From positions 1 through 32,120 of the forward strand of contig PYER01000041.1 in NCBI GenBank assembly GCA_003017855.1: a DNA stretch of 32,120 bases, read 5' to 3'. Each line of letters starts with the position of its first letter. Positions within the stretch are counted from its first letter, which is position 1. Under the pieces are notes generated by a model. That model did no database searches. It was not told where the DNA came from and saw nothing but the letters and a program-made list of their open reading frames with translations. Positions 73-21,965 of the stretch are shown piece after piece. This DNA is from a filamentous cyanobacterium CCT1 (lineage in GTDB: Bacteria > Cyanobacteriota > Cyanobacteriia > Phormidesmidales > Phormidesmidaceae). A program made the translations under genes and the position numbers.

Positions 73-1161
73 CTAAGTACCGTATAAAATGCGGGATACC
101 TTTTTATTTTTTACTAGTATGGATGTAGTTATCCAGCTCATTACAAAGATCAGGGTAGTAGCCGAAATTAAGGAAAGGGTACTAACGTTGTTAACGTAAC
201 CAGGATATAGGCGAACTAAAATAGATTGAATAGCTTCTATGAAAAATACATGAATACAATAGATGCCAAATGAACAAAGGCTAATACTTTTAATAGCAGG
301 ATTTTCTTTAACAGAATTGGATATTGCGATCGCAGCAATGAATGCAGTATAACCCCTAGCAATTTCTTCAACAGCGTTCGGCAACATCCATGAACCAAAG
401 ATATTAATAAATAAAAATACTAAAACCCAAAAAACAGGGTTATTACCAATTAACGTTAAGCTAAATTTGTTTGTTTTCGGGTGTGCCAGAAGCATGGCAA
501 ACATCACATAGGGTAAACACCTTAAAGCCCAAAAAAGCTCAACCAGAAGAAGTCTTAATAAAGGATTAGCGTTGCCCTCTGGGAAAATAGTGGCTAGAAG
601 TGATTCAAATGCAATATTATCTGGTCTCTTTAAACCATTTCCAGAGCTAAGAATCACCTGGTAAACCAATAGGCTGACAAACGCGATCAGTGCTGCTCCT
701 TTCCAGGAAATCTTCTTTTCTATTAGAACCTCTACAAAACGGATTAGCAAAGTGCCCATTATTAGTAGAGGCAGAAAGTAAAGATGATAAGAGGCTTCGC
801 CAAAGAAAACCAAAGACAGCGGATCTTGAAAAAGCTGGAATAATCTATTTGGTTCACCAGCCACCATAAATTTGGCAGCTTTATAAAGCAAATACAGAAC
901 AGACCATGTCCCGTAGGGAATTAATAAACGGAGCAATCTCGATTTAAGGGGGTATCGCTTCTGAGAAGTGTAGAGTTTATTAATTGCAAAGTAAAAAGCT
1001 GCTGCGAGAAAGAACGGAACAGAAAAGGATGCAAAATTAGTGATACTGAGCCAGCCAGGAGGGAAGACTTTGACTCCTTCATCAATATGTACGATGATGA
1101 CACCATACATTGCAAAGCCACGAAATACATCAATACCAGTTAGCTGTTGCGACTCTTTCAC
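73..1161 (-). CDS. Membrane acyltransferase, acyltransferase-3 family
   Basis: This is a 362-residue multi-pass membrane protein of the Acyl_transf_3 (OafA/OatA-like) family, which moves acyl groups such as acetyl across the membrane onto sugars of surface glycans. The N-terminus has the family hallmark: an Asp-x-x-Arg-Gly-Phe-Ala turn (residues about 11-17) followed by a helix ending in the candidate catalytic His of IIVHI (about residue 26). About ten hydrophobic segments follow, and the length is normal for a family member without an extra periplasmic domain. It is the last gene of the minus-strand locus in the window, 89 bp after a second family member, so both probably decorate the glycan made here. 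The substrate cannot be read from the sequence. The family call is firm; the sugar and acyl donor are unknown. Confidence 0.85.
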   Translation of the reverse strand: MKESQQLTGIDVFRGFAMYGVIIVHIDEGVKVFPPGWLSITNFASFSVPFFLAAAFYFAINKLYTSQKRYPLKSRLLRLLIPYGTWSVLYLLYKAAKFMVAGEPNRLFQLFQDPLSLVFFGEASYHLYFLPLLIMGTLLIRFVEVLIEKKISWKGAALIAFVSLLVYQVILSSGNGLKRPDNIAFESLLATIFPEGNANPLLRLLLVELFWALRCLPYVMFAMLLAHPKTNKFSLTLIGNNPVFWVLVFLFINIFGSWMLPNAVEEIARGYTAFIAAIAISNSVKENPAIKSISLCSFGIYCIHVFFIEAIQSILVRLYPGYVNNVSTLSLISATTLIFVMSWITTSILVKNKKVSRILYGT

Positions 1162-1250: not shown

Positions 1251-2399
1251 CTAGACAAACCCCTTTAGAAATTTTACCCGTCTAAACAGCATCGTTAGAC
1301 TAATAGAACCCAGCAGCGTAACTCCAAACTGAAACAAAATAACCAAGTTTAGAGAACTTTGCGATGCAGGATTAAAGGCAGAAAAAATAGGATTCTCAAA
1401 CAAGCCATTAGTGAAGAAAAGATGCAGTGTATAGATACCTAAAGAACAACCTGAGATGAATCGAATAATTTTAGGCACCGTGCGGGTCGATAAGAGAGCC
1501 AAGTACAAAAGAATCCACGAGCCAAAAACTAGAGACAGCCTTGAGTAGTGAAGAAGATCTTGGGAAAAAAACCACTCTAATATTGTTAAGGCTAGGAACA
1601 AGACTGTAAGGATCAGAAGTTTAAGCCGCATCTTTGAGTTTCCTTCCCTTAGTAAGCCTAACTTATACTCTCGAACTGTGATCGCAGTTACAAAGATGTA
1701 AGGCAGGAAATTTAGTGGGTTGTAATCCCATTGAGAAAAGTCAGATAGAGATTCTACTAAACCAGGCTCTTGAAGTAATGAGGCTTGTGGCGATCGCAGA
1801 AATGAAAATACAACCAATAATAAACAAGAAATAACTAGAAGACTATAAAGAATACTATTCTTCAGAACACCTTTTCTGATTCTTCCAAGACTTATGACTA
1901 CCGCCTCAGCAAGTACTGTAATAAATGCTAAAGAGAAAAAGAAGTACAAAGGTGAATTGCCACCACTGACAATAAATTCGATAAGAGCTTTTATGGATGA
2001 GACACTATGTTGAAGGGATTCAAGTTTTCCATTCAATAGCATATTAAAAACAATTAGTAAGCCAACCCAAAATACATATAACGATGTAAGTTTAGGGAGA
2101 CGTTTTTGAAATAAGTAGAGAGGACCTACTTTTTCGCTCTTAATATAAAACAGAAACAACGAAATCTGAAAAAAAGCCGGAACTGCAAGATAGGCTACGT
2201 TGGCACGGAGAATGTCCCCAATCGATATTGTACCGATCTTCAAGCTACCTGGGAAAAACGCATAACAGTGAAGTGCGACAATCGAAACAGCAAAAACAGC
2301 CCGTAAAAAATCAAACCCTTCAAACGTTGAATTCTGGTTCTGATGAGAATGAGGATTAGTTTGTGCCAGGAAGTTAGAACTATTTGAAGATACAGTCAT
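1251..2399 (-). CDS. Membrane acyltransferase, acyltransferase-3 family (second copy)
   Basis: This 382-residue polytopic protein belongs to the same Acyl_transf_3 family as its downstream neighbour but is clearly diverged from it. A polar N-terminal extension of about 27 residues, rich in Asn, Ser and Gln, precedes the motif FDFLRAVFA and the candidate catalytic His in VALHCYAF (about residue 44). Roughly ten membrane segments follow, with a typical C-terminal SLGIYTLHLFF segment. No strong Shine-Dalgarno sequence is visible before the ATG. Together with the neighbour and the acyltransferase domain of the fusion at 15723-18185, the locus has three such domains, so the product is probably acylated at more than one position. 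The acyl substrate is not predictable. Confidence 0.83.
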   Translation of the reverse strand: MTVSSNSSNFLAQTNPHSHQNQNSTFEGFDFLRAVFAVSIVALHCYAFFPGSLKIGTISIGDILRANVAYLAVPAFFQISLFLFYIKSEKVGPLYLFQKRLPKLTSLYVFWVGLLIVFNMLLNGKLESLQHSVSSIKALIEFIVSGGNSPLYFFFSLAFITVLAEAVVISLGRIRKGVLKNSILYSLLVISCLLLVVFSFLRSPQASLLQEPGLVESLSDFSQWDYNPLNFLPYIFVTAITVREYKLGLLREGNSKMRLKLLILTVLFLALTILEWFFSQDLLHYSRLSLVFGSWILLYLALLSTRTVPKIIRFISGCSLGIYTLHLFFTNGLFENPIFSAFNPASQSSLNLVILFQFGVTLLGSISLTMLFRRVKFLKGFV

Positions 2400-11772: not shown

Positions 11773-12750
11773 ATGGATTGTCCTCACTGCCAGAGCCAAC
11801 AGGTTAGCAAAAACGGGCTAGAGCCCCGTTTAGGCGGTACTCTCATGCAGCGGTATCGCTGTCGAGATTGCGGCAAACAATTCAATGAACGGACCGACAC
11901 CCCTATGGCTCGATTACGAGCCTCCAGCTCAGCCGTGGCCTTTGCGCTCAATGTTCGCAGCGAAGGGATGGGAGTGCGAGCGACAGCACGGTCTTTTGGT
12001 AAGTCCCACTCTACGCTTCTGCGTTGGGAACAACGTCTTGCCGATAAGGTGGAATCCTAGTCACCGCCTGCCCCTGAGGACCGTGAGGTCACTATAGAAG
12101 GCGACGAAGTGTACACTCGTGTCGGCGAGAACCTTCCCCCCTGCGAGTTCTGAAGGATGGACGATTCATTTTATCGAACGTAGCAGTCGCTATTGGATAG
12201 CGGCCCAGGCCGGGTACAAGGATGCCACCCTGTTTCAACAAGGCACTCAACAAGCTTGGCAGTGGGCTCAAGCCTGTCCTTACATTCGGTGGTTTACTGA
12301 CGGTGAGCGGCGCTATGGCAAAGCCTTATGGGAGTTAGCGAGCGTCTACTAGCACTCCGCGATTGTCCAAGCCCTTACCGCACCCGAAAAGTCTGGCGAG
12401 AAGGCCTGGAAGTGGCGATGAAAATTAAGGGGTCTCAAGGTCAGCGGCGCGTCGTCTAGCTCAAGACTGAGCATCCGTTTACGGCCATTGGCCCAACAGC
12501 AGAGGTTCATGTCAATCATAATGAGGCTTAAAATGCGGCTCTAAGGCGACGGTGCAGCGCCTATCGTCGGCGTCAAAACTTGTATGCCGAGACACGGGCG
12601 GCATTGCAACGAGTCTCGGATGCTCAGCGAATCGTTCACAACTGGGTCAGATCGCATTGGGGGTTAAGGCAGCGCACCACTCCAGCCATAGCGATGGGAC
12701 TCTGCTCTAGACCTTTATCAACTCAAGAAATCCTTTGCATTGAGAGGGCT
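11773..12750 (+). pseudogene. IS1-family transposase, multiply disrupted
   Basis: The frame opens at ATG 11773 with the InsA-type zinc-binding region (CPHC near the start, then YRCRDCGKQF), followed by a helix-turn-helix-like stretch VRATARSFGKSHSTLLRWE. In-frame stops occur at 12058 (TAG), 12457 (TAG, probably from a Trp codon) and 12529 (TAA, probably from a Gln codon). Frameshifts lie in the C run near 12136-12142 and again before about 12340. Reading across them recovers DDE-domain blocks: EGDEVYTRVGENLPP, then GWTIHFIERSSRYW and WFTDGERRYGKALWEL, then ALRRRCSAYRRRQNLYAET and VHNWVRSHWGLRQRTTPA near the C-terminus. At least five lesions make it certainly non-functional. Confidence 0.9.
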
Positions 12751-12765
12751 TCGATGTATCTCCTC

Positions 12766-12781
12766 TTAACAGACCAGTGCC
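12766..12781 (+). repeat. IS1 right terminal inverted repeat
   Basis: These bases are the exact reverse complement of 11715-11730 and mark the outer right end of the element. Confidence 0.88.
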
Positions 12782-12789
12782 TGATACCT
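12782..12789 (+). repeat. Target-site duplication of IS1 element, right copy
   Basis: TGATACCT is identical to 11707-11714. The stop codon of the SDR gene (12816-12818) lies 26 bases beyond, so the insertion missed that gene. Confidence 0.85.
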
Positions 12790-12815
12790 GATTGCCATGA
12801 TACGTCAGGAGCGTC

Positions 12816-13892
12816 TTATTGCTGCTCTAGTAACCAATTGATGGAATGCTGACATCCCCCCTCAAATGAAACGATGGGTTCATAACCCAGTGTTTTCTCC
12901 GCTTTGATAAAGGGAAGTTTGTATTTTGACTGCTGTAGAACTGCCATCATTTCTGTAACTACAGGTTGTGCTGTTACGGCAGTAATGGGTAAGGTTTCAG
13001 TTACAGGCTGGCTTCGTCGTGAACGGATGTGTTTTAACTTGTGCTTGAAGTCTTCTGGTAACAGTGCCAAACTCTTTTGTATGAATTCTGATTCACGAAT
13101 TGTCCCTATCCACTGCTGTTTCTTGTTGTGGTTAAATTCTGGAACTGCCAGATGTGGAATGTGATTGATATCGACTCCCAGGGCTTTGGCAAAGGGACGG
13201 TAAAAATCAAACCAAGTGATTAGTTCGCGATCGCCCACAAAAAATGCCTCACCATCTGCACCAGAGGCTTCCATTGATAGCCGCATCGCATGAATCAAGT
13301 TATCGACATAAACCGTGTTGCAAATACCTCTACCACCGTTAATGAAATAAGCTGTGCCATTAATCAGTTGGGAAGCTAGCTCAGAAACCCAGCGCGATCG
13401 CGGACCAAATACGATTCCCGGTCTAAAAATTACGACCTCTACTTCTCCCCGTTGCCGTAGTTTCATCAACCTACGCTCAGCGTCAATTTTGGCGACATGC
13501 GTAGGAAATCCTGGCTGATGTTGAATGGGTGGTGTTGATTCGATTGTTCCTGGTGCAGGAGCCGAAGTATGAACAATCATGGAACTTAGGTAGATCAGTC
13601 GGCGAACACCTGCTTTTTGAGCAGCATAATAGGCGGGTGCAATACTGCCTCTAATCAAGCCAGCACTTCCAAGCACGGAATGGATGACTACATCACAGCC
13701 TTGAAATGCTTTTTCTAATGCTTTTTGGTCAAAGGCGTTAGCAACATGTCCTTCCAAATCCATATTTCTAAAACATAATAGAGCAGCGGGTTGCCGTACA
13801 ATGGAACAAATTGTGAATCCATCCTTGTGCAGCATCTCAACCGCCCTTCTACCAACGAAGCCACTGGCTCCAACAATACCTATCTTGACCAT
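12816..13892 (-). CDS. Atypical NAD(P)-dependent sugar epimerase/dehydratase-like SDR
   Basis: This 358-residue extended/atypical SDR starts with a clear Rossmann fold: GIVGASGFVGRRAVEML (4-20), then GCDVVIHSVLGSAG, and the strand-5 LIYLSSMIVH. The position of the usual catalytic YxxxK reads H-V-A-K in PTHVAKIDAERRL, so Lys is present but Tyr is replaced by His. Downstream are VVIFRPGIVFGPRSRWVS and VYVDNLIHAM, both typical of extended SDRs. A ribosome-binding AGGAA stands about 9 bases before the ATG. It follows the GMC oxidoreductase by 45 bp, and the two may act in sequence on one sugar. An epimerase, a reductase and a non-catalytic binding role are all open. Confidence 0.8.
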   Translation of the reverse strand: MVKIGIVGASGFVGRRAVEMLHKDGFTICSIVRQPAALLCFRNMDLEGHVANAFDQKALEKAFQGCDVVIHSVLGSAGLIRGSIAPAYYAAQKAGVRRLIYLSSMIVHTSAPAPGTIESTPPIQHQPGFPTHVAKIDAERRLMKLRQRGEVEVVIFRPGIVFGPRSRWVSELASQLINGTAYFINGGRGICNTVYVDNLIHAMRLSMEASGADGEAFFVGDRELITWFDFYRPFAKALGVDINHIPHLAVPEFNHNKKQQWIGTIRESEFIQKSLALLPEDFKHKLKHIRSRRSQPVTETLPITAVTAQPVVTEMMAVLQQSKYKLPFIKAEKTLGYEPIVSFEGGCQHSINWLLEQQ

Positions 13893-13937: not shown

Positions 13938-15572
13938 TTAGTGCAGGAGTGCCTTAATGTGATCAGCAAGACGTAGAGAAAGGGCAATTGCGGTAAGCGT
14001 TGGATTGGAGTATCCAGCAGTTGGAAATACTGAACACCCAGCAATAAATAAGTTAGCAATGCCATGCACTTTGCAATGGGCATCTACGACACCCTGTTTG
14101 GGATCGTTGTGCATGCGAGTGCTACCCAGATGATGATGCATTGCTGTTTTCTCAAACTTCTGCTCAGCCCAATTGCGAGTAAACTGTAACTGGCCGATCC
14201 CTGACTGCTCAAATTCTTCTGCCCATATTTCTTGGACGCGGATAGCATTTTGAATATCGATATCATTCAGCCGCCAGTGAATTTCTGTTTTAGGTAAACC
14301 CAGGCGATCGCATTCCCGACTCAACGTAATTCGATTGTTTGGATCGGGGACCTGCTCAATTTGGTAAAAGATTTCAAACAATGAAAACCGATGCTTCTCA
14401 CCTGGTAGATACGACCAATCTCCACGGCGAAATGCTGGAATACCGCGAATTGCTGACCAAAAGCTCGCGGATGCGATATAGTCACTACCACGACCGATAA
14501 GGGCTAAGCGTTTCGCTAAATCTTGGGGAATTTTGCCATGCTGTATGGTTGAGAGAATTTCACGCAGCGCTAGTGTAGCTTCCCGTTGGTGGGGAAGAGG
14601 ACGGGGGAAGATTTGTGCCCCATTGTTTAATAGCTTTTCCTGCCTCAGAACAGTCTCTGATAATTTGATGTGTGCCATCACAGGACCCTGTTTTGTAGGG
14701 TAAATGTCATACAAATTGGTTTGGTTGAAAACGGTACGACTGTACGGAACCAACATACAACTCAAGATGGGACGATCCATAAAATATCGACCCACAACAT
14801 CATATTGATTCCCTACCCCAGCAGCTTGTTGCCGATTAGATGCCAACAGTAAACGAGCATTTTCCATCCCTCCTGCTGCGAGGATAAATACGTTGGCTTT
14901 TAACCAAATCTGTTTTCCCTGTAAGGTAGCTATACGAAGCCGCGTTACCCGTTGCCCAAGTTCATCTGTCTCGATTTCTACCACATTGGCATAGAGTAAA
15001 GTCGTAATATTGGATGCTTGCCGCAGCAGATTGGGATATTCTGTCGTGAAGGGATCGCGTAAACCATATTGGCTTATCCCTGTTATTAAGCGATCGCTCT
15101 TAAACATTAACTGTTTTGCCCGTTTGTCTTGCCACCCTTCAGGATCATAGGCATAAGGACCAATTTGACAAATTGCCTGTGCTCGTATATAAAACGGAGT
15201 TAAATCTGCCTTTGTGAAGGGCCACCCGCTATAGGGCACCCAATCACGGGGCTCAAAATCAATAGCATCTAATGGTAGACAACGCCAACCATATTTCTGA
15301 TATCCACTTTGCCCTTCCCAGGCATGAGAAGTACCCCCCAATTGGCGGCGGCGAGTCTCTCTCACAACTGGATACGGATCACCGACAACATGCCCCTCGC
15401 TCAACGTTTGAGTCTCTTCATCGTACTCAATACCACCACTTTCAAGGATGTAAACCTTAATGTTTTGGTTGGCAAACTCACGAGCGATGGTCAAACCCGC
15501 AGGGCCTGCCCCAATGATACAGATTTGAGTTTCTAAGACCTCATCGGTTGACAGAGTTCTAGCATCAAGCAT
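13938..15572 (-). CDS. GMC-family FAD-dependent oxidoreductase
   Basis: This 544-residue soluble flavoprotein begins with the FAD-binding motif CIIGAGPAGLTIAREFA (about 18-34), followed by an acidic residue in YILESGG. A second FAD-contact segment is FILAAGGMENARLLL. The C-terminal GMC block reads HHLGSTRMHNDP, then VVDAHCKVHGIANLFIAG and SVFPTAGYSNPTLTAIAL. No Tat or Sec signal is seen, so it should act in the cytosol. The family oxidises alcohol or sugar hydroxyls. AAAGGAACT lies before the ATG at suitable spacing. It sits between the A-PCP-acyltransferase gene and the SDR gene, which suggests a role in oxidising a sugar or an acyl group before incorporation. The substrate is unknown. Confidence 0.87.
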   Translation of the reverse strand: MLDARTLSTDEVLETQICIIGAGPAGLTIAREFANQNIKVYILESGGIEYDEETQTLSEGHVVGDPYPVVRETRRRQLGGTSHAWEGQSGYQKYGWRCLPLDAIDFEPRDWVPYSGWPFTKADLTPFYIRAQAICQIGPYAYDPEGWQDKRAKQLMFKSDRLITGISQYGLRDPFTTEYPNLLRQASNITTLLYANVVEIETDELGQRVTRLRIATLQGKQIWLKANVFILAAGGMENARLLLASNRQQAAGVGNQYDVVGRYFMDRPILSCMLVPYSRTVFNQTNLYDIYPTKQGPVMAHIKLSETVLRQEKLLNNGAQIFPRPLPHQREATLALREILSTIQHGKIPQDLAKRLALIGRGSDYIASASFWSAIRGIPAFRRGDWSYLPGEKHRFSLFEIFYQIEQVPDPNNRITLSRECDRLGLPKTEIHWRLNDIDIQNAIRVQEIWAEEFEQSGIGQLQFTRNWAEQKFEKTAMHHHLGSTRMHNDPKQGVVDAHCKVHGIANLFIAGCSVFPTAGYSNPTLTAIALSLRLADHIKALLH

Positions 15573-15722: not shown

Positions 15723-18185
15723 TCAGAATATTTCTGAGTTATTGGGTGCTTTATTGCCTAATTTGGAAAACCATCTTTCAGCTAAAACCCGTTTGAAGAA
15801 TTGGATTCCGCTCCAAACAAGGGTACCTCCTACTAGAGTTATCACAATGATGGCTAAGGGATTCGAAATTTTTCCAACATTTGTAACTAGATGTATAAAT
15901 ATCATATAAGTTAAGTAAATATAGTAGGAAGCTGCACTCACGGTTTGAATAGGACCCTTTACTTGAGTTGGTATAGGTAAGTAAGGTGCCCAGAGCAGCA
16001 TACTTCCACCTGTGGTGATCCACCAAGTTTGGGAATTGGAGAAGCCCAAGAAAAGTGGTGTTAATGTCAACAGTGCTACTGTTGTAAATCCTTTCTCTAA
16101 TCTAGATTTTGAAAAATGTATACACCAACCTAAGGTAAATACCCAAAATAGCATATGAGGAACTTGGTCATAGAGATAGCTGGTATCCCATAGCATTGGT
16201 CCAAATAGACGAGTAACTGAGCTAATTCCTAGGAGTAGAATGCCAAATAGCCAAGGCGATAAACTGGCAAATTCTCGTACTCTTTTGATGGCGAAAGGAA
16301 GGGAAAAAAGGACCACGGTTTGCATAAGATTAGCAACAAACCAAACGAAAAATATTGCGTTTTTGGTTTGCAACTCCGGAATTTGAAAATTCCCTGCAAA
16401 CCCAATAATTAGAGGATCAAAGCTTTGCTTCCATGTTTGATAAGAAACCACTAGTATCAAATAAGGAATTGCAAGGTGTTTGAGCGAGGAAAATATGGAC
16501 TGAAAACGCCCATTCAAAAGAGAATGACCTTGGAAACGCGAAAAATTTAATCCCGCAATTAATAACAACAAGAATGCTCCACCTTTAACAAAGTGCAAGC
16601 CGGCATGGTTACTTATAATGCCAGTAATTGCGAAGGCTCTAAGGGCAATATCAGTTTCAACAAAAGTACTTGCGCCACTTTGAGGGAGCAATTGATCTAA
16701 TTTTATTAAAGGCGTTTGCTCCCATTGATTTGGAAGATAGCCAAGGTAACGTTCGAGGTCCATAGATAGCTGCACATAGGATAGAGAATCGCCTCCTAGA
16801 GAAATGAATGTATCTTGAGGATTAATCTGTTGGAGATTAAGACTTTGGCAAAAAATGGTTTGTATGGTTGAACGATGAGACACTGATCCTTGTGGAACAT
16901 CCAAGGATACAGTTGCTGGTTGGTTGTTAGGTAAAAACTCTTGAACGTACCACTCCTCCAACTGCTTCCGCTGAACCTTTCCAGTTGCTGTCTTAGGCAG
17001 GCTATCAACATCAACTATGGCAATAGCGTTGGCTGCGTTAACTCCTAGCTCCTGAACAGCCTTTGAAACCGTTACTTGCAACTGCTGCTTTTCCAAATCT
17101 ACCTCTCTTGTGACCGCTACTAAAAAGCTCTCGCCACGCATGGGATCTGCTTTGCGACAAATAGCTAGTCCAGTACTAAGTCCTAAGGTTTCATAGATTT
17201 TTGTCTCTAGGGTCTCAGGGTTAACCTTGAGACCGCCACAGTTAATTACATCATCTGCTCTGCCTCTATAGTACAAGTAGCCTCTTTCTAAGCTGCCCAA
17301 GTCTTTAGTCAAAAACCAACCTGCTTCATCTTGGAGTGAGATGGCCTTACCATTAATCAAGTAACTTTGGGCAACATGTTCTCCTCGAATTAAAATCTGT
17401 CCTTCCGAGTTTAGCTTAATTTCTACGTTCCCAAATGCTTGACCCACTGACTCTAGGGCATTTCCCTCAGCATTATGAATTTCAAGGAGAGTCGTTCGAG
17501 ATGCTTCGGTTAACCCATAATGCTGTACAATTCTTGCCTCAGGAAATAATCCCTTAAGAGCCTCTTTTTCGTGACGGCTCATGTACTGGCTACCGATTTC
17601 AATCCATTGAACTCTCTTACCATAACTACCGATTAAGTCTTTGTTGGCAAGTAAGACGCGCCAGAGACTGGGAACAGCGGATATGGCATTAATTTGATTA
17701 TTTCTAAGCATCTCACCAATCTCTGACGGATTAAAACCGTTACTAGGGATAAAAAATTGTCCACCAACAGCAGATACTGCTCGGCAACGGCCAAATCCAA
17801 AGGAGTGGTAAACTGGAACACCAATATACTCACTAATACTATCGTCTATTTGCATAAGAGAATTTAACCGACTCACGACATCGGCTAAATTCTCATGGGT
17901 TAAAATTACGCCCTTGGGAGCCCCTTCTGTTCCAGAAGTAAAGGCAATAAGAGCCGCCGTCTTAGAGTTTGAAGGAGTAAACTTTCGCCTCATCCAATTA
18001 TCACCAACAGTAGGAGTGATAACTTCGTTAACATTAGCTGCGGCAACGCGATCGAAATCGTTAACTGTTTTAAGTGGTACAGCAATATTCCCAGATTCCA
18101 AGCATTTGAATATGTCCTCCACATAGCCTGTATGGTTTGCCGCCACAATGCCAAACTTGTTCTTGTTTTCAATGAAAAGAGTCAT
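15723..18185 (-). CDS. Single-chain adenylation - carrier protein - membrane acyltransferase fusion
   Basis: This 820-residue protein has three parts. Residues 1-415 form an AMP-dependent acyl/amino-acid activating domain, with phosphate-binding TSGTEGAPKG (83-92), QHYGLTEASRTT (221-232), YRGRADDVINCGGLKVNP (306-323) and the A10 motif PKTATGKVQRK with the adenylating Lys at about 403. Residues about 435-505 form a carrier domain with ISLGGDSLS, Ser467 being the phosphopantetheine site. Residues about 510-820 are a polytopic acyltransferase-3 domain with RAFAI and candidate catalytic His527 in ISNHAGL. The logic is that of the Dlt system: activate, load on a carrier, then transfer at the membrane. 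The adenylation domain is short at its N-terminus. Start support is weak. The acyl group and acceptor are unknown. Confidence 0.88.
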   Translation of the reverse strand: MTLFIENKNKFGIVAANHTGYVEDIFKCLESGNIAVPLKTVNDFDRVAAANVNEVITPTVGDNWMRRKFTPSNSKTAALIAFTSGTEGAPKGVILTHENLADVVSRLNSLMQIDDSISEYIGVPVYHSFGFGRCRAVSAVGGQFFIPSNGFNPSEIGEMLRNNQINAISAVPSLWRVLLANKDLIGSYGKRVQWIEIGSQYMSRHEKEALKGLFPEARIVQHYGLTEASRTTLLEIHNAEGNALESVGQAFGNVEIKLNSEGQILIRGEHVAQSYLINGKAISLQDEAGWFLTKDLGSLERGYLYYRGRADDVINCGGLKVNPETLETKIYETLGLSTGLAICRKADPMRGESFLVAVTREVDLEKQQLQVTVSKAVQELGVNAANAIAIVDVDSLPKTATGKVQRKQLEEWYVQEFLPNNQPATVSLDVPQGSVSHRSTIQTIFCQSLNLQQINPQDTFISLGGDSLSYVQLSMDLERYLGYLPNQWEQTPLIKLDQLLPQSGASTFVETDIALRAFAITGIISNHAGLHFVKGGAFLLLLIAGLNFSRFQGHSLLNGRFQSIFSSLKHLAIPYLILVVSYQTWKQSFDPLIIGFAGNFQIPELQTKNAIFFVWFVANLMQTVVLFSLPFAIKRVREFASLSPWLFGILLLGISSVTRLFGPMLWDTSYLYDQVPHMLFWVFTLGWCIHFSKSRLEKGFTTVALLTLTPLFLGFSNSQTWWITTGGSMLLWAPYLPIPTQVKGPIQTVSAASYYIYLTYMIFIHLVTNVGKISNPLAIIVITLVGGTLVWSGIQFFKRVLAERWFSKLGNKAPNNSEIF

Positions 18186-18537
18186 TTTTCTATTGATTAC
18201 ACAATTAGACTATTTAAGTATTACGAATGCAACCATAGATTTCAGGAATAAATAGAGAGCTTAATCAATGCATTACCTATGGAGAAGTTTGGCTATTTTT
18301 CCATTAAAGTTCTCGTAATTAGGCGGATCAAAATATACTGATATTGCCCATTCCGGGACAGGTGAATTACCAAAATATTTAACAAAAATTTAAATGGTGG
18401 AAAATAAGAGAACAAAGCATTAGCTAACGGACAACAGAGAGTAATTGATCTGTTGTTCGATTTTAGCTTTTCAAGACCTTTTTAAAGGAACTGAAAAAAA
18501 TGGTAGCAAGTGTTTGAACATGTATTAAAACTTACTA
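18186..18537. other. Upstream region of the fusion gene with an inverted repeat
   Basis: These 352 AT-rich bases should contain the promoter of the fusion gene. The one structure visible is an imperfect inverted repeat, CGGACAACAG at 18428-18437 and CTGTTGTTCG at 18450-18459 (one G-T pair), with a 12-base loop. No T-tract follows it in the minus-strand sense, so a terminator is not convincing; an operator or a chance repeat are alternatives. Confidence 0.4.
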
Positions 18538-18643
18538 CTATAGCGGTTCCTGGACGGGCAAGGTACACCTCAATTTGGGAAGCTATTGAATCAACAGACT
18601 TGGGCAAATGAACTGTACTTCATTAGAGTGAGAACCGCTATAG
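18538..18643. repeat. Small MITE-like inverted-repeat element
   Basis: The 12-base CTATAGCGGTTC (18538-18549) is perfectly complementary to GAACCGCTATAG (18632-18643), enclosing about 82 bases with no open frame. The ends read TA-TAGCGGTT...AACCGCTA-TA, which fits a non-autonomous element of the IS630/Tc1 type that duplicates TA on insertion. It lies 8 bp beyond the stop codon of the 1104-residue protein and could also act as that gene's 3' hairpin. Origin is inferred from the shape only. Confidence 0.6.
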
Positions 18644-18650
18644 TTCTTTC

Positions 18651-21600
18651 CTAATTGACAGAAGCTAATCCACGTGAATTTGCCTGTTCTAATTTTATCT
18701 TTGGTAAAAACTCAACATTGAGTAACGATTTCGCTGAAAAGCTGTCCCCAAGACGAACAGGCATTCCTTGACCACTAATTTGCACTGTCATTTGTTGACC
18801 ATCCCATGTCCAATTCACTAAATTGCCATTGGCCCATAGCCCCTTGGCACTTAGCGGCTGCTTTAGCCATTCCTTAGGGATACCACTACCTACCACCAGA
18901 GTCGGTTGAGACGACGTTTGATCTACGTATGCGAGCATGTCCAATTGCAATAGCAACATCTCTGCAGCTGTCCAGTAGTGAGGCGTCAAATTAGATGGAT
19001 TCACCCAACCCCGAATTTTATGCCATTGGGAAAAACTTTCAGGCATGGGAAACTCATCGGTTTCCTCACCTCCCCAGGTGTACAATCCGGGAGATGCTTG
19101 ATTGTCCCAAAACCAGTTAAGCGTTGCCCAAACGTGCTCGGGTTGATTAAGCAACAACCATTGATGAGCTTCAGCAAGTTCAAGATGCCCTGCTTGATAC
19201 GGTAGGCGGAGTTCTCCTGCTGCCCATAATTCAGTCCAACGATTCTGTAGAGTTTGAGCCATAGTCTTTGTGTCCGAGGAGGCAATTCCACTTGGCCAAA
19301 GCCCATCAGTGGGGGCTGTTCTACCTTCTTGAACAGCTTTCTGCCATGTCGTTTTCAATTGTCTAGCTTGAGTTCGCCATCGCTGGGCTTCTTTAGGTTG
19401 CTGCATACGGTCTGCTAAGGTTGCAGCATCCATAAGAGCCCGATAGCTAATAGCGCTGGTAGAAGGGTCTAAGGTGATTACTCCTGGTAAGTTCTGCATC
19501 TTGCCTGCAATCAAGTCTACTTTTAGGAAGTCTGGATTTTCAGTATGGGGAAGTTTTGCACTGGCAAAGACCGGATAACCTGGTCGATGACTTGACAACA
19601 TTTGAGCAATCAAATCTGCTTTTCGTTGTACATGGGGCCAAAGCCATTGGTCATATTCAGGTTGCTGTAATTTACTGGCAACTTCTTCCAGAGCCCATAT
19701 CCCTAATGCTGGAATATCTGCTTCTGGTATGGTGCCATTAAAGAAGTCATTCTCAGCGAAGTAGGGCGATAGTTTTTTTGCAACTTCTAGTTGTCCTACA
19801 CGAGCTAGAGCGACTAATTGATAAGCCCCATCTCGAAAACGGGGGAAGGGGTAACTAATGGGATCGGTTGGGTGAGTTCGTGATCCAACAAGTCCCATTA
19901 AGAGATGAGAAGCTTGGGCAAAAAGACTGTCAGTGAATTGCTGATTTGGCAAATCAAGCACCACATTTGGAGTAGTGCTAAAAGGATGATAATCCTGTAC
20001 AGAATCAAATTGCCTATCTTCAACCAGAATCCTAAAATTCTCTCCTTGACCGAGTTCAATTCTGGCATACCCCCACCCATAGGGATCTTCCCAGCGGGAT
20101 ATAGGCAACTTCTCTTGAATCCAGCCTTTAGTACTTTCGCTACCTAAGTAAACGTTGGCTGTTTCGGGAATATCTTGAACTACCCAACGATTGCTAACTA
20201 TCAGTTGTTGACCGTTCCAATCTAGGGACGGAATAGCTCCCCCGGCTGGTCCTGCACTACGGATCACCAGACTAAGTCTTGTGTCGGCTTTCGCTAGATG
20301 TTTTAGATCAAGTTGCCAATGACTTGAATCTGAAACCGACCAGGAGGCTTCGTAAAATGGTGTTTTTGCTAAAACTCCAGATGTATTATGAAGAGAATTT
20401 TGAACCAACTTTTGCTCTATTTTCCTGAGTGGAATACTGTCGCTTGTAGCTTTGAGATTACCTCGCTGGTCAACAACCCATATAGAGATTCCAAAACTAC
20501 CAGGATTAGGACTAAAGCTTCCTCCTGGTTCATAGAAAGCCTTACCCTCCACAGGACTTCCTGCTTTGGCTAGCACAATATGTCCTTCACTCCTTGGCCA
20601 AGGGTCATCAGTGCGTATCTTCATTTGGGCAATGACCTGTTGCTGAGGAGTGCCATAATTCCAAAGAGCGGATGCAATGTGGTCAAATTGTGCTCGATTG
20701 TTAATCCCAGCGCTTACAAGCAAGATTGCTGCTAAAACTAGGCTGAGGGGGCGTAAACGAGTAAACACACTAAAGGCTGCCAGAGTCAATAGTAAGGGAA
20801 TAAAATGCAGCGAATAGATAAATGTTTCCTCGACTCCGTAGATGCTATGCATCAAGATTTGAGCTATCAGAGTCAACCCTAAAACAATACGGAACTTTAA
20901 ATGTCGTTTGGTAGTAAAGAAACCCCAAAGTCCAAGACCCAGCAATCCAGTCCAGGAAAAAACAGCGATCGCTCCCCATAATCCACCTGAGGCGGGAGAA
21001 AATATATTTGGTTCCAAGATGATCCAATCAGGACGATCTGCTGAGCTAAGGAGTTGGGTTTCTGGCATGACCATGGTTTGGTAAAAGAAAGAAACCAAAA
21101 CACCCCATAGGTTGCTCTGCTGAGGCGTCGCCATAAATTTCTTCTCACCAATGAAGGTGCCTGGTTGGAAAGGAAACCCCGCATTTGTAAAAATGATTCT
21201 CTGAACAATCCACATCCCGGTTGCTAACAGCAACGAAACGGTACCAATTTGGAGCACTTTTTTCCAATGGCGGTTGATAATGGTTGCAAAAATACCCACC
21301 ATCGAATTGGTGATTGTGACGCTGACAGTTATGATATTAACTGCCACGAACCACATATCAGATAATTGTTGTTGCTGAGCAAATACAGCAAAAATTAAAC
21401 CTAATAAAATTGTTATCGAACCGAAAGAAAAAGATTCAGGAACAACGAGCCAAAATATGGAGGCGGTGCTTACTCCTCCCAACAAGCTAAACAGTATTGC
21501 ATCTATGCGATGGCAATCCATTAACCTGAGGAGAAAATACATAGACCCAATCCAAACAATCGAAACGATAACTATCAGAACTCTGACAGCAGAAAGTGGG

Positions 21601-21965
21601 TCAAGGGACAGAATTTTGCTAAGTAAAAAAACCAGTGGGAAAACAATTAAGGGAAATAGAGGATGTTTGTTATTACGACCAAAGTCGCTTTCAACGCTGG
21701 TGATGTTGCCAAAGACAGTGGGGATATCACTGCCAAACCAAACGTCTTGGGCATAGAAATCAGTGAAGATTGGATCGGGAATTTGGTATGTACCGAAGTA
21801 TGTAAAAATTGCGGTCGCGATCGCCAAACCCACAAAAATTGCAATATCAAGTTGGTGAAAACTAATCCACTTTAGGTTCAATAAATTAGGAAACCTTAGG
21901 CCCACACCCATAATTTTGTGATTTTTCATATTATTATTATATTTAGAAAACATGTTGTTTTTCAT
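18651..21965 (-). CDS. Large membrane protein: glycosyltransferase-like GT-C region plus glycosidase-like C-terminal domain
   Basis: This 1104-residue protein has about ten membrane helices in residues 38-425. The first external loop carries acidic residues in FTDFYAQDVWFGSD and a later HPLFPLIVFP, as in GT-C transferases where an acidic loop and an HPP/HPL segment frame the active site. Residues about 440-660 are soluble and look beta-rich. Residues about 670-1020 are alpha-helical with repeated Trp-rich segments (ADIPALGIWALEEVA; LNWFWDNQASPGLYTWGG; NPSNLTPHYWTAAEMLLLQL), resembling the (alpha/alpha)6 toroid of six-hairpin glycosidases. The soluble part should be periplasmic. Several ATGs compete at the start (21965, 21953, 21930). 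It may polymerise or trim the glycan. The domain calls are structural impressions, not motif proofs. Confidence 0.68.
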   Translation of the reverse strand: MKNNMFSKYNNNMKNHKIMGVGLRFPNLLNLKWISFHQLDIAIFVGLAIATAIFTYFGTYQIPDPIFTDFYAQDVWFGSDIPTVFGNITSVESDFGRNNKHPLFPLIVFPLVFLLSKILSLDPLSAVRVLIVIVSIVWIGSMYFLLRLMDCHRIDAILFSLLGGVSTASIFWLVVPESFSFGSITILLGLIFAVFAQQQQLSDMWFVAVNIITVSVTITNSMVGIFATIINRHWKKVLQIGTVSLLLATGMWIVQRIIFTNAGFPFQPGTFIGEKKFMATPQQSNLWGVLVSFFYQTMVMPETQLLSSADRPDWIILEPNIFSPASGGLWGAIAVFSWTGLLGLGLWGFFTTKRHLKFRIVLGLTLIAQILMHSIYGVEETFIYSLHFIPLLLTLAAFSVFTRLRPLSLVLAAILLVSAGINNRAQFDHIASALWNYGTPQQQVIAQMKIRTDDPWPRSEGHIVLAKAGSPVEGKAFYEPGGSFSPNPGSFGISIWVVDQRGNLKATSDSIPLRKIEQKLVQNSLHNTSGVLAKTPFYEASWSVSDSSHWQLDLKHLAKADTRLSLVIRSAGPAGGAIPSLDWNGQQLIVSNRWVVQDIPETANVYLGSESTKGWIQEKLPISRWEDPYGWGYARIELGQGENFRILVEDRQFDSVQDYHPFSTTPNVVLDLPNQQFTDSLFAQASHLLMGLVGSRTHPTDPISYPFPRFRDGAYQLVALARVGQLEVAKKLSPYFAENDFFNGTIPEADIPALGIWALEEVASKLQQPEYDQWLWPHVQRKADLIAQMLSSHRPGYPVFASAKLPHTENPDFLKVDLIAGKMQNLPGVITLDPSTSAISYRALMDAATLADRMQQPKEAQRWRTQARQLKTTWQKAVQEGRTAPTDGLWPSGIASSDTKTMAQTLQNRWTELWAAGELRLPYQAGHLELAEAHQWLLLNQPEHVWATLNWFWDNQASPGLYTWGGEETDEFPMPESFSQWHKIRGWVNPSNLTPHYWTAAEMLLLQLDMLAYVDQTSSQPTLVVGSGIPKEWLKQPLSAKGLWANGNLVNWTWDGQQMTVQISGQGMPVRLGDSFSAKSLLNVEFLPKIKLEQANSRGLASVN

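Follow-up and report, generated by a model that had tools for sequence, protein, structure and literature searches.

A cyanobacterial protein that joins adenylation, carrier, and AT3-like membrane domains in one chain and may supply its own acyl donor

Introduction

How does a membrane acyltransferase obtain its acyl group when an activating enzyme and an acyl carrier are part of the same polypeptide? The question is raised by one gene on contig PYER01000041.1 of the filamentous cyanobacterium CCT1 (assembly GCA_003017855.1), within a stretch of 32,120 nucleotides referred to here as the window. The gene encodes an 820-residue protein with a shortened adenylation domain, a carrier domain, and a membrane domain resembling acyltransferase-3 (AT3) enzymes. 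In the descriptions of AT3 and TmAT proteins that we compared, acyl-CoA is the donor and the conserved residues form its binding site. The window protein is probably a one-chain, self-loading transmembrane acyltransferase, which would charge its own phosphopantetheine arm with a small acid, and this arm would take the place of acyl-CoA in the AT3-like channel.

Related arrangements are known. Lipid A glycylation by AlmE, AlmF, and AlmG has adenylation, carrier, and transferase steps, which are carried out by separate proteins and with a transferase of a different family from the AT3-like domain. In the Dlt system, as set out in the available text of PMC11035591, ATP activation is followed by docking of a phosphopantetheine carrier on the cytosolic face of a membrane acyltransferase and by transfer outside. 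The window protein resembles it in its activation, carrier, and membrane transfer steps, and its adenylation domain matches DltA (3e7w). It differs in being one chain, whereas DltA, DltC, and DltB are separate proteins; in its C-terminal model, which matches TmAT enzymes, whereas DltB is an MBOAT protein (same text of PMC11035591); and in showing no sign of D-alanine. VanT is described in the available text of PMC9558356 and PMC12423673 as an AT3 domain fused to serine racemase, and thus also joins an AT3 domain to a soluble enzyme, but its racemase lies at the C-terminus and it has neither ATP activation nor a carrier. We recognized no published description of an adenylation-carrier-AT3 fusion, and found no biochemistry of any member of the fused family, in the literature searched, outside which subscription papers largely fell. 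In their available main text, PMC7448272, PMC9558356, and PMC12423673 mention neither phosphopantetheine nor AMP-binding; that of PMC9833829 has phosphopantetheine once, as a part of the coenzyme, and AMP-binding is absent from it.

Results

An intact reading frame encodes all three domains

The protein is encoded by a single open reading frame (ORF) on the minus strand, with its ATG start at position 18185 and its end at 15723. Only eight further open codons precede the ATG (open frame of 828), and the same span on the plus strand is full of stops in the matching frame. The order within the 820 residues is a shortened adenylation domain, a carrier domain with Ser467, and a ten-helix membrane domain. 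A preliminary description of this DNA had reported adenylation, carrier, and His527 motifs in one frame, and all were recovered at the residues it gave. The features are listed below (TMH, transmembrane helix; rows are aligned proteins).

15723..18185, minus strand: whole ORF, adenylation - carrier - AT3-like membrane domain, 820 aa (ORF reading, AlphaFold)
16935..18185, minus strand: shortened adenylation domain, residues 1-417 (PF00501; VIA-align to MatB chimera)
17910..17939, minus strand: A3 motif TSGTEGAPKG, residues 83-92 (motif reading; conservation in 53 rows)
17490..17519, minus strand: A5 motif YGLTEASRTT, residues 223-232 (motif reading)
16977..16979, minus strand: A10 Lys403 (Lys in 53/53 rows)
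16695..16874, minus strand: carrier domain, residues 438-497 (PF00550 8.1e-7)
16785..16787, minus strand: Ser467, predicted phosphopantetheine attachment, in LGGDSL (Ser in 53/53 rows)
15726..16679, minus strand: predicted AT3-like (TmAT-fold) domain, ten membrane helices, residues 503-820 (AlphaFold; HGSNAT/GWT1 structural matches)
16638..16640, minus strand: Arg516 of R-X10-H, TMH1 (34/34 window-type proteins)
16605..16607, minus strand: His527 of R-X10-H (34/34 window-type proteins; Gln in the relative from genome G377, outside the 34)
16464..16499, minus strand: TMH3 segment SIFSSLKHLAIP, residues 563-574, site of RxxR in canonical AT3; sole basic residue Lys569 (alignment)

The ORF is confirmed as real. 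The preliminary description had named a frame joined by assembly error as a ground for doubt, and full-length relatives in independent genomes rule out an assembly or frameshift artifact: a homolog in FACHB-63 (locus L037) is 64% identical over 811 aligned positions, and the one-contig genome G377 has an 805-aa homolog, which is the closest full-length relative found (65% identical overall). Loss of the N-terminus through a wrongly called start is ruled out by the eight upstream codons and by the rest of the family, which is also short.

In the domain search that the preliminary description proposed, Pfam recognized AMP-binding (4.2e-30, residues 62-276) and PP-binding (8.1e-7, residues 440-482; PF00550 at 29.6 vs a cut-off of 20.8 bits) and did not recognize Acyl_transf_3. 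The AlphaFold model of the whole protein had a pLDDT of 89.8 and a pTM of 0.57, and the linker between the adenylation domain and the carrier (residues 420-437) was flexible in it (pLDDT <50).

The membrane domain is predicted to adopt the TmAT fold

Because Pfam gave no match to Acyl_transf_3 (PF01757) at E<=0.01 in the window protein, the AT3 claim needed other evidence. Among 20 scanned proteins, both copies at locus L039 and those at L046 and L021, which have the same domain order as the window protein, scored above the Pfam AT3 cut-off, and the remainder fell below it or had no score, the G377 protein being one without a score. Two proteins in which a short adenylation-carrier part precedes a plainer AT3 domain (L110 and L115) reached 93.9 and 92.4 bits.

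Comparisons were made with a set of 34 window-type proteins and 37 canonical AT3 controls. The 34 are the window protein and 33 of its 38 window-type relatives in the adenylation tree described below; contig-cut L041 and L077, near-duplicates L052 and L071, and the apparently frame-shifted L096 were left out, and the G377, Paracoccus, and Novosphingobium proteins stand outside the set. The controls are 29 of 30 loci (half-length L152 was omitted) and eight of 16 matches listed, from which near-duplicates, partial, broken, and fused proteins were removed; the window's two stand-alone AT3 proteins are among the controls. In a single profile-profile comparison, the 34 fused C-termini matched the 37 canonical AT3 proteins with a probability of 97.9 and an E-value of 4e-13. 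With a profile of the controls, 32 of the 34 fused C-termini outscored the best non-AT3 protein of the window; those of L072 and L073 fell among the negatives, and the window C-terminus itself scored a weak 11.2 bits.

Modeled alone, residues 503-820 gave ten long helices with a pLDDT of 92.5 and a pTM of 0.90. A Foldseek search of the PDB with this model returned nothing under E 0.001. When the 657 chains ranked highest by Foldseek were submitted to VIA-align (650 aligned), the first nine rows were HGSNAT, with Z from 14.2 to 12.7, and GWT1, with Z of 9.7 and 9.6, after which Z dropped to 6.5 and then 4.9. Both enzymes are members of the TmAT superfamily, which the available text of PMC12423673 unites with AT3. 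MBOAT was not listed among the matches, an absence that is no proof either way. The lack of an AT3 fold at the C-terminus, which the preliminary description had held would count against it, is not what the models indicate, since a ten-helix TmAT fold is predicted. The domain is nevertheless not filed as canonical AT3, as it fails the RxxR, DxxR, and Pfam tests.

The thioester side of the donor site appears to be kept and the CoA side changed

The acyl-CoA site residues of TmAT proteins are listed in the available text of PMC12423673. In simulations of OafB, Arg74 of RxxR is found with Arg14, Lys279, and Arg338 at the CoA 3'-phosphate (available text of PMC9833829). The window protein has R516 (TMH1), G686 (TMH6), and Y757 (TMH9) at the TmAT positions. 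Like the PF01757 enzymes OafB, OatA, and Oac, it combines a predicted ten-helix fold with R-X10-H on TMH1, a Gly on TMH6, and SxxxY on TMH9; unlike them, it has no DxxR acid, RxxR pair, or Pfam match, and it carries its own N-terminal adenylation-carrier module.

This pattern extends through the family. Arg516 (at the place of Arg14), His527, and the TMH6 Gly are invariant in all 34 window-type proteins, the window included (the G377 protein, with Gln at 527, is thus not part of the 34/34 count), and the TMH9 Tyr, which in HGSNAT lies near the mercaptoethylamine end, is present in 28/34. The DxxR acid occurs in 0/34 of them vs 22/37 canonical AT3 proteins, the first TMH3 Arg region is basic in 1/34 vs 35/36 canonical proteins with the anchoring Pro, and RxxR at the aligned spacing was found in none of the 34. 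We preferred this position-based count to a regular-expression count of RxxR, which gave 31/37 controls, 7/34 fused proteins, and 2/17 second-branch proteins (shuffles, 13% and 10%). For the second AT3 branch, aligned as 17 of 29 rows after a duplicate, near-duplicates, and tandem-carrier forms were left out, the TMH3 site cannot be anchored (no Pro) and no claim is made. Two stand-alone AT3 proteins of the same cluster served as internal controls, and both keep DxxR and R/K-xx-R/K:

73..1161, minus strand: stand-alone AT3, DxxR-X10-H + RLLR, internal control (PF01757 5.3e-19)
1251..2399, minus strand: stand-alone AT3, DxxR-X10-H + RLPK, internal control (PF01757 3.1e-11)

In our reading of these alignments, the deep, thioester-side part of the site appears to be kept, and the cytosolic, CoA-side part appears changed, not erased. 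This is a pattern that one could expect from a carrier-borne donor arm.

A carrier at fixed distance may replace CoA

The predicted attachment residue, Ser467, is Ser in 53/53 aligned proteins. The distance from the carrier Ser to the TMH1 Arg is 49 residues in the window protein and 49-53 in 34/34 window-type proteins; the arm should therefore sit at the cytosolic mouth of the channel. At four Chlorobium/Chlorobiaceae loci, phosphopantetheinyl-transferase-like genes of one cluster lie about 0-314 bases from the module gene, and the one member tested matched PF01648 at 65 bits. The CCT1 genome encodes one protein of the phosphopantetheinyl-transferase family, away from the polysaccharide cluster.

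We propose that the cytosolic adenylation domain would activate a small carboxylic acid with ATP and that the acyl group would pass to the phosphopantetheine on Ser467 of the flexibly linked carrier. Tethered 49 residues ahead of the TMH1 Arg, the carrier would dock at the cytosolic mouth of the ten-helix domain, and its arm would thread into the channel where canonical AT3 enzymes take acyl-CoA. With the help of His527, the acyl group would then be transferred to an outer-face acceptor, for which the likeliest candidate is a hydroxyl on the polysaccharide that the cluster makes or on its lipid-linked precursor.

The adenylation domain is shortened and its acid may lack an amino group

The adenylation domain has the usual ANL fold minus about 45 N-terminal residues, with residue 6 of the model aligning to residue 45-51 of McbA, DltA, and MatB, and does not include the complete N-terminal subdomain of ANL enzymes. 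The whole family shares this shortening, as the position of TSGT shows: it ranges from residue 52 to 139, with a median of 85, across 78 related proteins. The ANL core motifs A3, A5, and A8 and the A10 lysine are all present. S84, G85, T86, and K91 of A3 are invariant in the 53 aligned rows, and Lys403 is Lys in all 53.

By VIA-align, the domain matched a MatB chimera with Z 28.5 (2.8 Å over 299 residues) and DltA (3e7w) with Z 27.6, and Foldseek with the whole model returned adenylation enzymes exclusively among the 50 matches listed. The nearest solved enzymes by sequence were oxalyl-CoA and malonyl-CoA synthetases (5ie0, 4fuq) and a FadD5 ligase, and a P-x-Y/F-H-x-x-G segment goes with the match to the two synthetases. 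These two synthetases are among the best sequence matches of the domain, but their product is free acyl-CoA; they are full-length enzymes that lack both carrier and membrane domains, and their identity to it in structural alignment is 21-22%. The similarity points, weakly, to a small acid that has no alpha-amino group as substrate and away from the amino acid that the preliminary description had entertained as a substituent. A specificity code was not derivable, as the domain is too distant from solved enzymes.

The short module is joined to different C-terminal partners

The fused protein is rare in cyanobacteria and more common elsewhere. With the carrier-AT3 half as query, 3/386 cyanobacterial genomes matched, the window's own included. 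With the whole protein as query, the adenylation domain was matched in 38/38 nearest genomes, and among the matches listed only those of the window's own genome and of G024 reached the membrane domain; a first contig scan with the single protein as query gave no match. In G024, a window-type AT3 domain (42% identical) stands behind a full-length adenylation domain of the nonribosomal peptide synthetase type. The carrier-AT3 half also matched 86 plasmid records, 68 of them over at least 80% of that half, with Rhizobium (43) and Leisingera (17) as the leading genera. Ten intact annotated copies that were inspected were all named 'AMP-binding protein', and 'AMP-dependent synthetase' and 'acyltransferase family protein' were other annotations among the plasmid matches. 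On the actinobacterial plasmids L023, L032, and L033, a longer adenylation-carrier-AT3 gene neighbors an operon for an iron ABC transporter; L023 and L033 also have metal-resistance genes next to it.

One genome per species was scanned for the short adenylation-carrier module, and the 80 best of the 106 loci obtained showed several C-terminal partners. These were the window-type AT3; a second AT3 branch (in Chlorobium, Methylophaga, Nitrincola, Roseovarius, and others); the plainer AT3 of L110 and L115; a hexapeptide transferase domain (L090, L095); and a thioesterase in place of AT3 (L094). Locus L048 has the short adenylation protein alone. In Malonomonas rubra (L097:9986-12529), the short module is followed by one predicted membrane helix and an SGNH/GDSL-like domain that scores below Pfam cut-offs, possibly a transferase acting outside without AT3. 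Candidatus Parabeggiatoa (L039:1157-6498) has two adenylation-carrier-AT3 genes in tandem, one for each AT3 branch. Tandem carriers precede AT3 in L102, with three PP-binding stretches, and in L103, with four by eye. Three loci, L102 (9009-9941), L103, and L112, have a gene from one cluster whose end precedes the module gene by 12-13 bases; in the tested member (L102) it encodes a TauD-family dioxygenase, which may modify the carrier-bound acyl group.

When the C-terminal types were mapped on a tree of 78 adenylation domains, the label of the window-type AT3 required five changes and that of the second AT3 branch nine; well-supported branches force at least two and at least four of these changes, respectively. 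The window's clade of 11 rows (SH-aLRT 99) held eight proteins with the window-type AT3, two with the second-branch AT3, and one without. This was a quick tree with SH-aLRT support only and with C-terminal labels assigned partly by hand and partly by simple patterns; its total of 13 changes (least possible, seven) includes classes for contig-cut and unassigned rows. We think the chances are even that the window protein represents a carrier-fed branch of the TmAT fold that has given up the RxxR pair and the DxxR acid, within a plug-in family in which the C-terminal partner of the short module varies between AT3, in two or three branches, and domains of the hexapeptide, SGNH-like, and thioesterase types.

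The window gene is part of a polysaccharide cluster

The window gene is located in a polysaccharide cluster with glycosyltransferases, an ABC transporter, two stand-alone AT3 genes, and a decaprenyl-phosphate phosphoribosyltransferase homolog that scores above its cut-off. Its neighbors include the following.

12816..13892, minus strand: SDR/epimerase (PF01370 1.9e-18)
13938..15572, minus strand: GMC oxidoreductase (PF05199 2.3e-23)
18651..21965, minus strand: 1104-aa membrane protein (58% homolog in the G377 cluster)

The 1104-aa membrane protein had no Pfam or NCBIfam match at E<=0.01. Around the FACHB-63 copy there are counterparts of six window neighbors (55-79% identical, the SDR in part) and an ABC transporter (about 50%). 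The G377 cluster has the 1104-aa membrane protein (58%) and an AT3 protein (42%) around its fused copy, and L042 has neighbors that look like glycosyltransferases by eye. The glycan setting of the preliminary description thus holds for the window, FACHB-63, and G377, which share neighbors, and does not extend to the cyanobacterial copies L038, L040, L028, and L029, around which no such cluster was seen by eye. In non-cyanobacterial groups the neighbors of the module gene differ; among the 80 loci, a WecG-like gene cluster was found in 14 and an exosortase-like one, of which one member was tested, in ten. Judging from the cluster, the likeliest acceptor of the window protein is an exopolysaccharide or its lipid-linked precursor, and it may differ elsewhere. 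Three AT3-type domains occur in the one cluster (73-1161 and 1251-2399, canonical; 15723-18185, fused), which suggests several acyl substituents on one glycan.

The GMC oxidoreductase and the SDR had been proposed to prepare the acyl group or the sugar, a role that finds no support as a rule. Homologs of the GMC protein (E<=1e-40) occur in 12/292 cyanobacterial genomes, the window's own included; the window SDR was found in 0/9 of the GMC loci examined (about 1.5 kb on either side), and a protein like the window GMC at E<=1e-10 in 1/80 related loci (L043). The GMC as a conserved partner was rejected on these counts. A partnership at single loci is retained as a possibility, given that in L043 a GMC gene likewise stands close to the fused copy, between that copy and DprE1/DprE2-like genes that score below NCBIfam cut-offs. 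DprE1 gave two weak matches in the CCT1 genome, none above the cut-off, and a tie of the GMC protein to polyprenyl-phosphate pentose chemistry is possible but thin.

Two further elements were observed near these genes. Between a rhamnosyltransferase-like gene and the SDR, at 11773-12850 on the plus strand, lie broken transposase-like frames with a zinc-ribbon start, MDCPHCQSQQVSKNG, which we take to be IS1-like and which have 66-68% DNA matches at two other places in the genome. In the 465-base gap upstream of the fused gene, a 108-base stretch (18537-18644) has perfect 13-base inverted ends, ACTATAGCGGTTC/GAACCGCTATAGT. It appears MITE-like; a 121-base query spanning it found no second copy in the genome.

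Discussion

The suggestion of the preliminary description that the protein brings its own activated acyl group is supported by our analysis because the predicted fold, the conservation of motifs, the loss of RxxR and DxxR, the fixed spacing, and the swapping of partners all fit it. These features were observed, together with the domain order, and the catalytic steps, the CoA-to-carrier donor swap, the acid, and the acceptor are inferences.

Several findings weigh against this interpretation. The pTM of 0.57 leaves the arrangement of the domains in the full-length model uncertain, and the membrane domain of the window protein is silent in Pfam and weak against the control profile. The CoA end of the site is altered, not erased: Arg516, a 3'-phosphate contact in OafB, is kept, and the second TMH3 Arg region, at the place of Arg74, is basic in 22/34 window-type proteins vs 32/36 controls, with Lys569 in the window. 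In the branch with longer adenylation domains (10 of 12 proteins read; L023 and L032 were not), seven of the ten keep a basic residue near the first TMH3 site, and the DxxR acid is present in none. The G377 protein, for all its closeness, carries Gln instead of His at position 527, and Arg is found there in L076, of the second AT3 branch. The TMH9 His, kept in 30/34, is missing in the window, FACHB-63, L045, and L046, and is lost in G377 too. Either the chemistry of some members has changed or some are inactive. The 34 proteins share ancestry, and the residue loss may be a single event. Nor was a polysaccharide cluster seen by eye around the copies L038, L040, L028, and L029.

The retained Arg516, as a possible contact of the CoA 3'-phosphate, and the basic residues at the second TMH3 region and in the longer-adenylation branch would also suit an AT3-like domain that uses ordinary acyl-CoA, with the adenylation-carrier part serving another reaction or only regulating this one and the fusion amounting to co-location. 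We consider this unlikely given that the DxxR acid (0/34) and the first TMH3 Arg region (1/34) are unlike canonical AT3, that the carrier spacing is fixed, and that tandem carriers stand directly before AT3 in L102 and L103. Alternatively, the protein could serve release or export in a small-molecule pathway, with a lipid or small metabolite, and not a glycan, receiving the carrier-bound acyl group from the membrane domain. This reading would account for the thioesterase that replaces AT3 in L094, for the several cyanobacterial copies with no polysaccharide cluster by eye, and for plasmid relatives beside unrelated genes (for example, those for iron ABC transporters in Rhodococcus and Mycolicibacterium, and different ones in Paracoccus and Sinorhizobium). 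It appears quite improbable, as polysaccharide clusters that have genes in common surround the window, FACHB-63, and G377 copies and the WecG-like and exosortase-like clusters recur in 14 and ten of the 80 loci. Decay of the membrane domain in cyanobacteria, which would leave a membrane-anchored adenylation-carrier enzyme, is very improbable: Gln527 in G377, the TMH9 His lost in the window, FACHB-63, and G377, and the missing Pfam match speak for it, but the window and FACHB-63 proteins keep Arg516, His527, and the TMH9 SxxxY, the TMH6 Gly is invariant in the 34, and the membrane domain is intact and confidently folded in the AlphaFold model.

If the window protein is indeed a self-loading transmembrane acyltransferase, a carrier can feed a TmAT channel, just as one feeds DltB in a different family. 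The acids available for surface glycans would then extend beyond those that exist as CoA esters, and proteins of this kind may offer one-gene tools for the decoration of polysaccharides.

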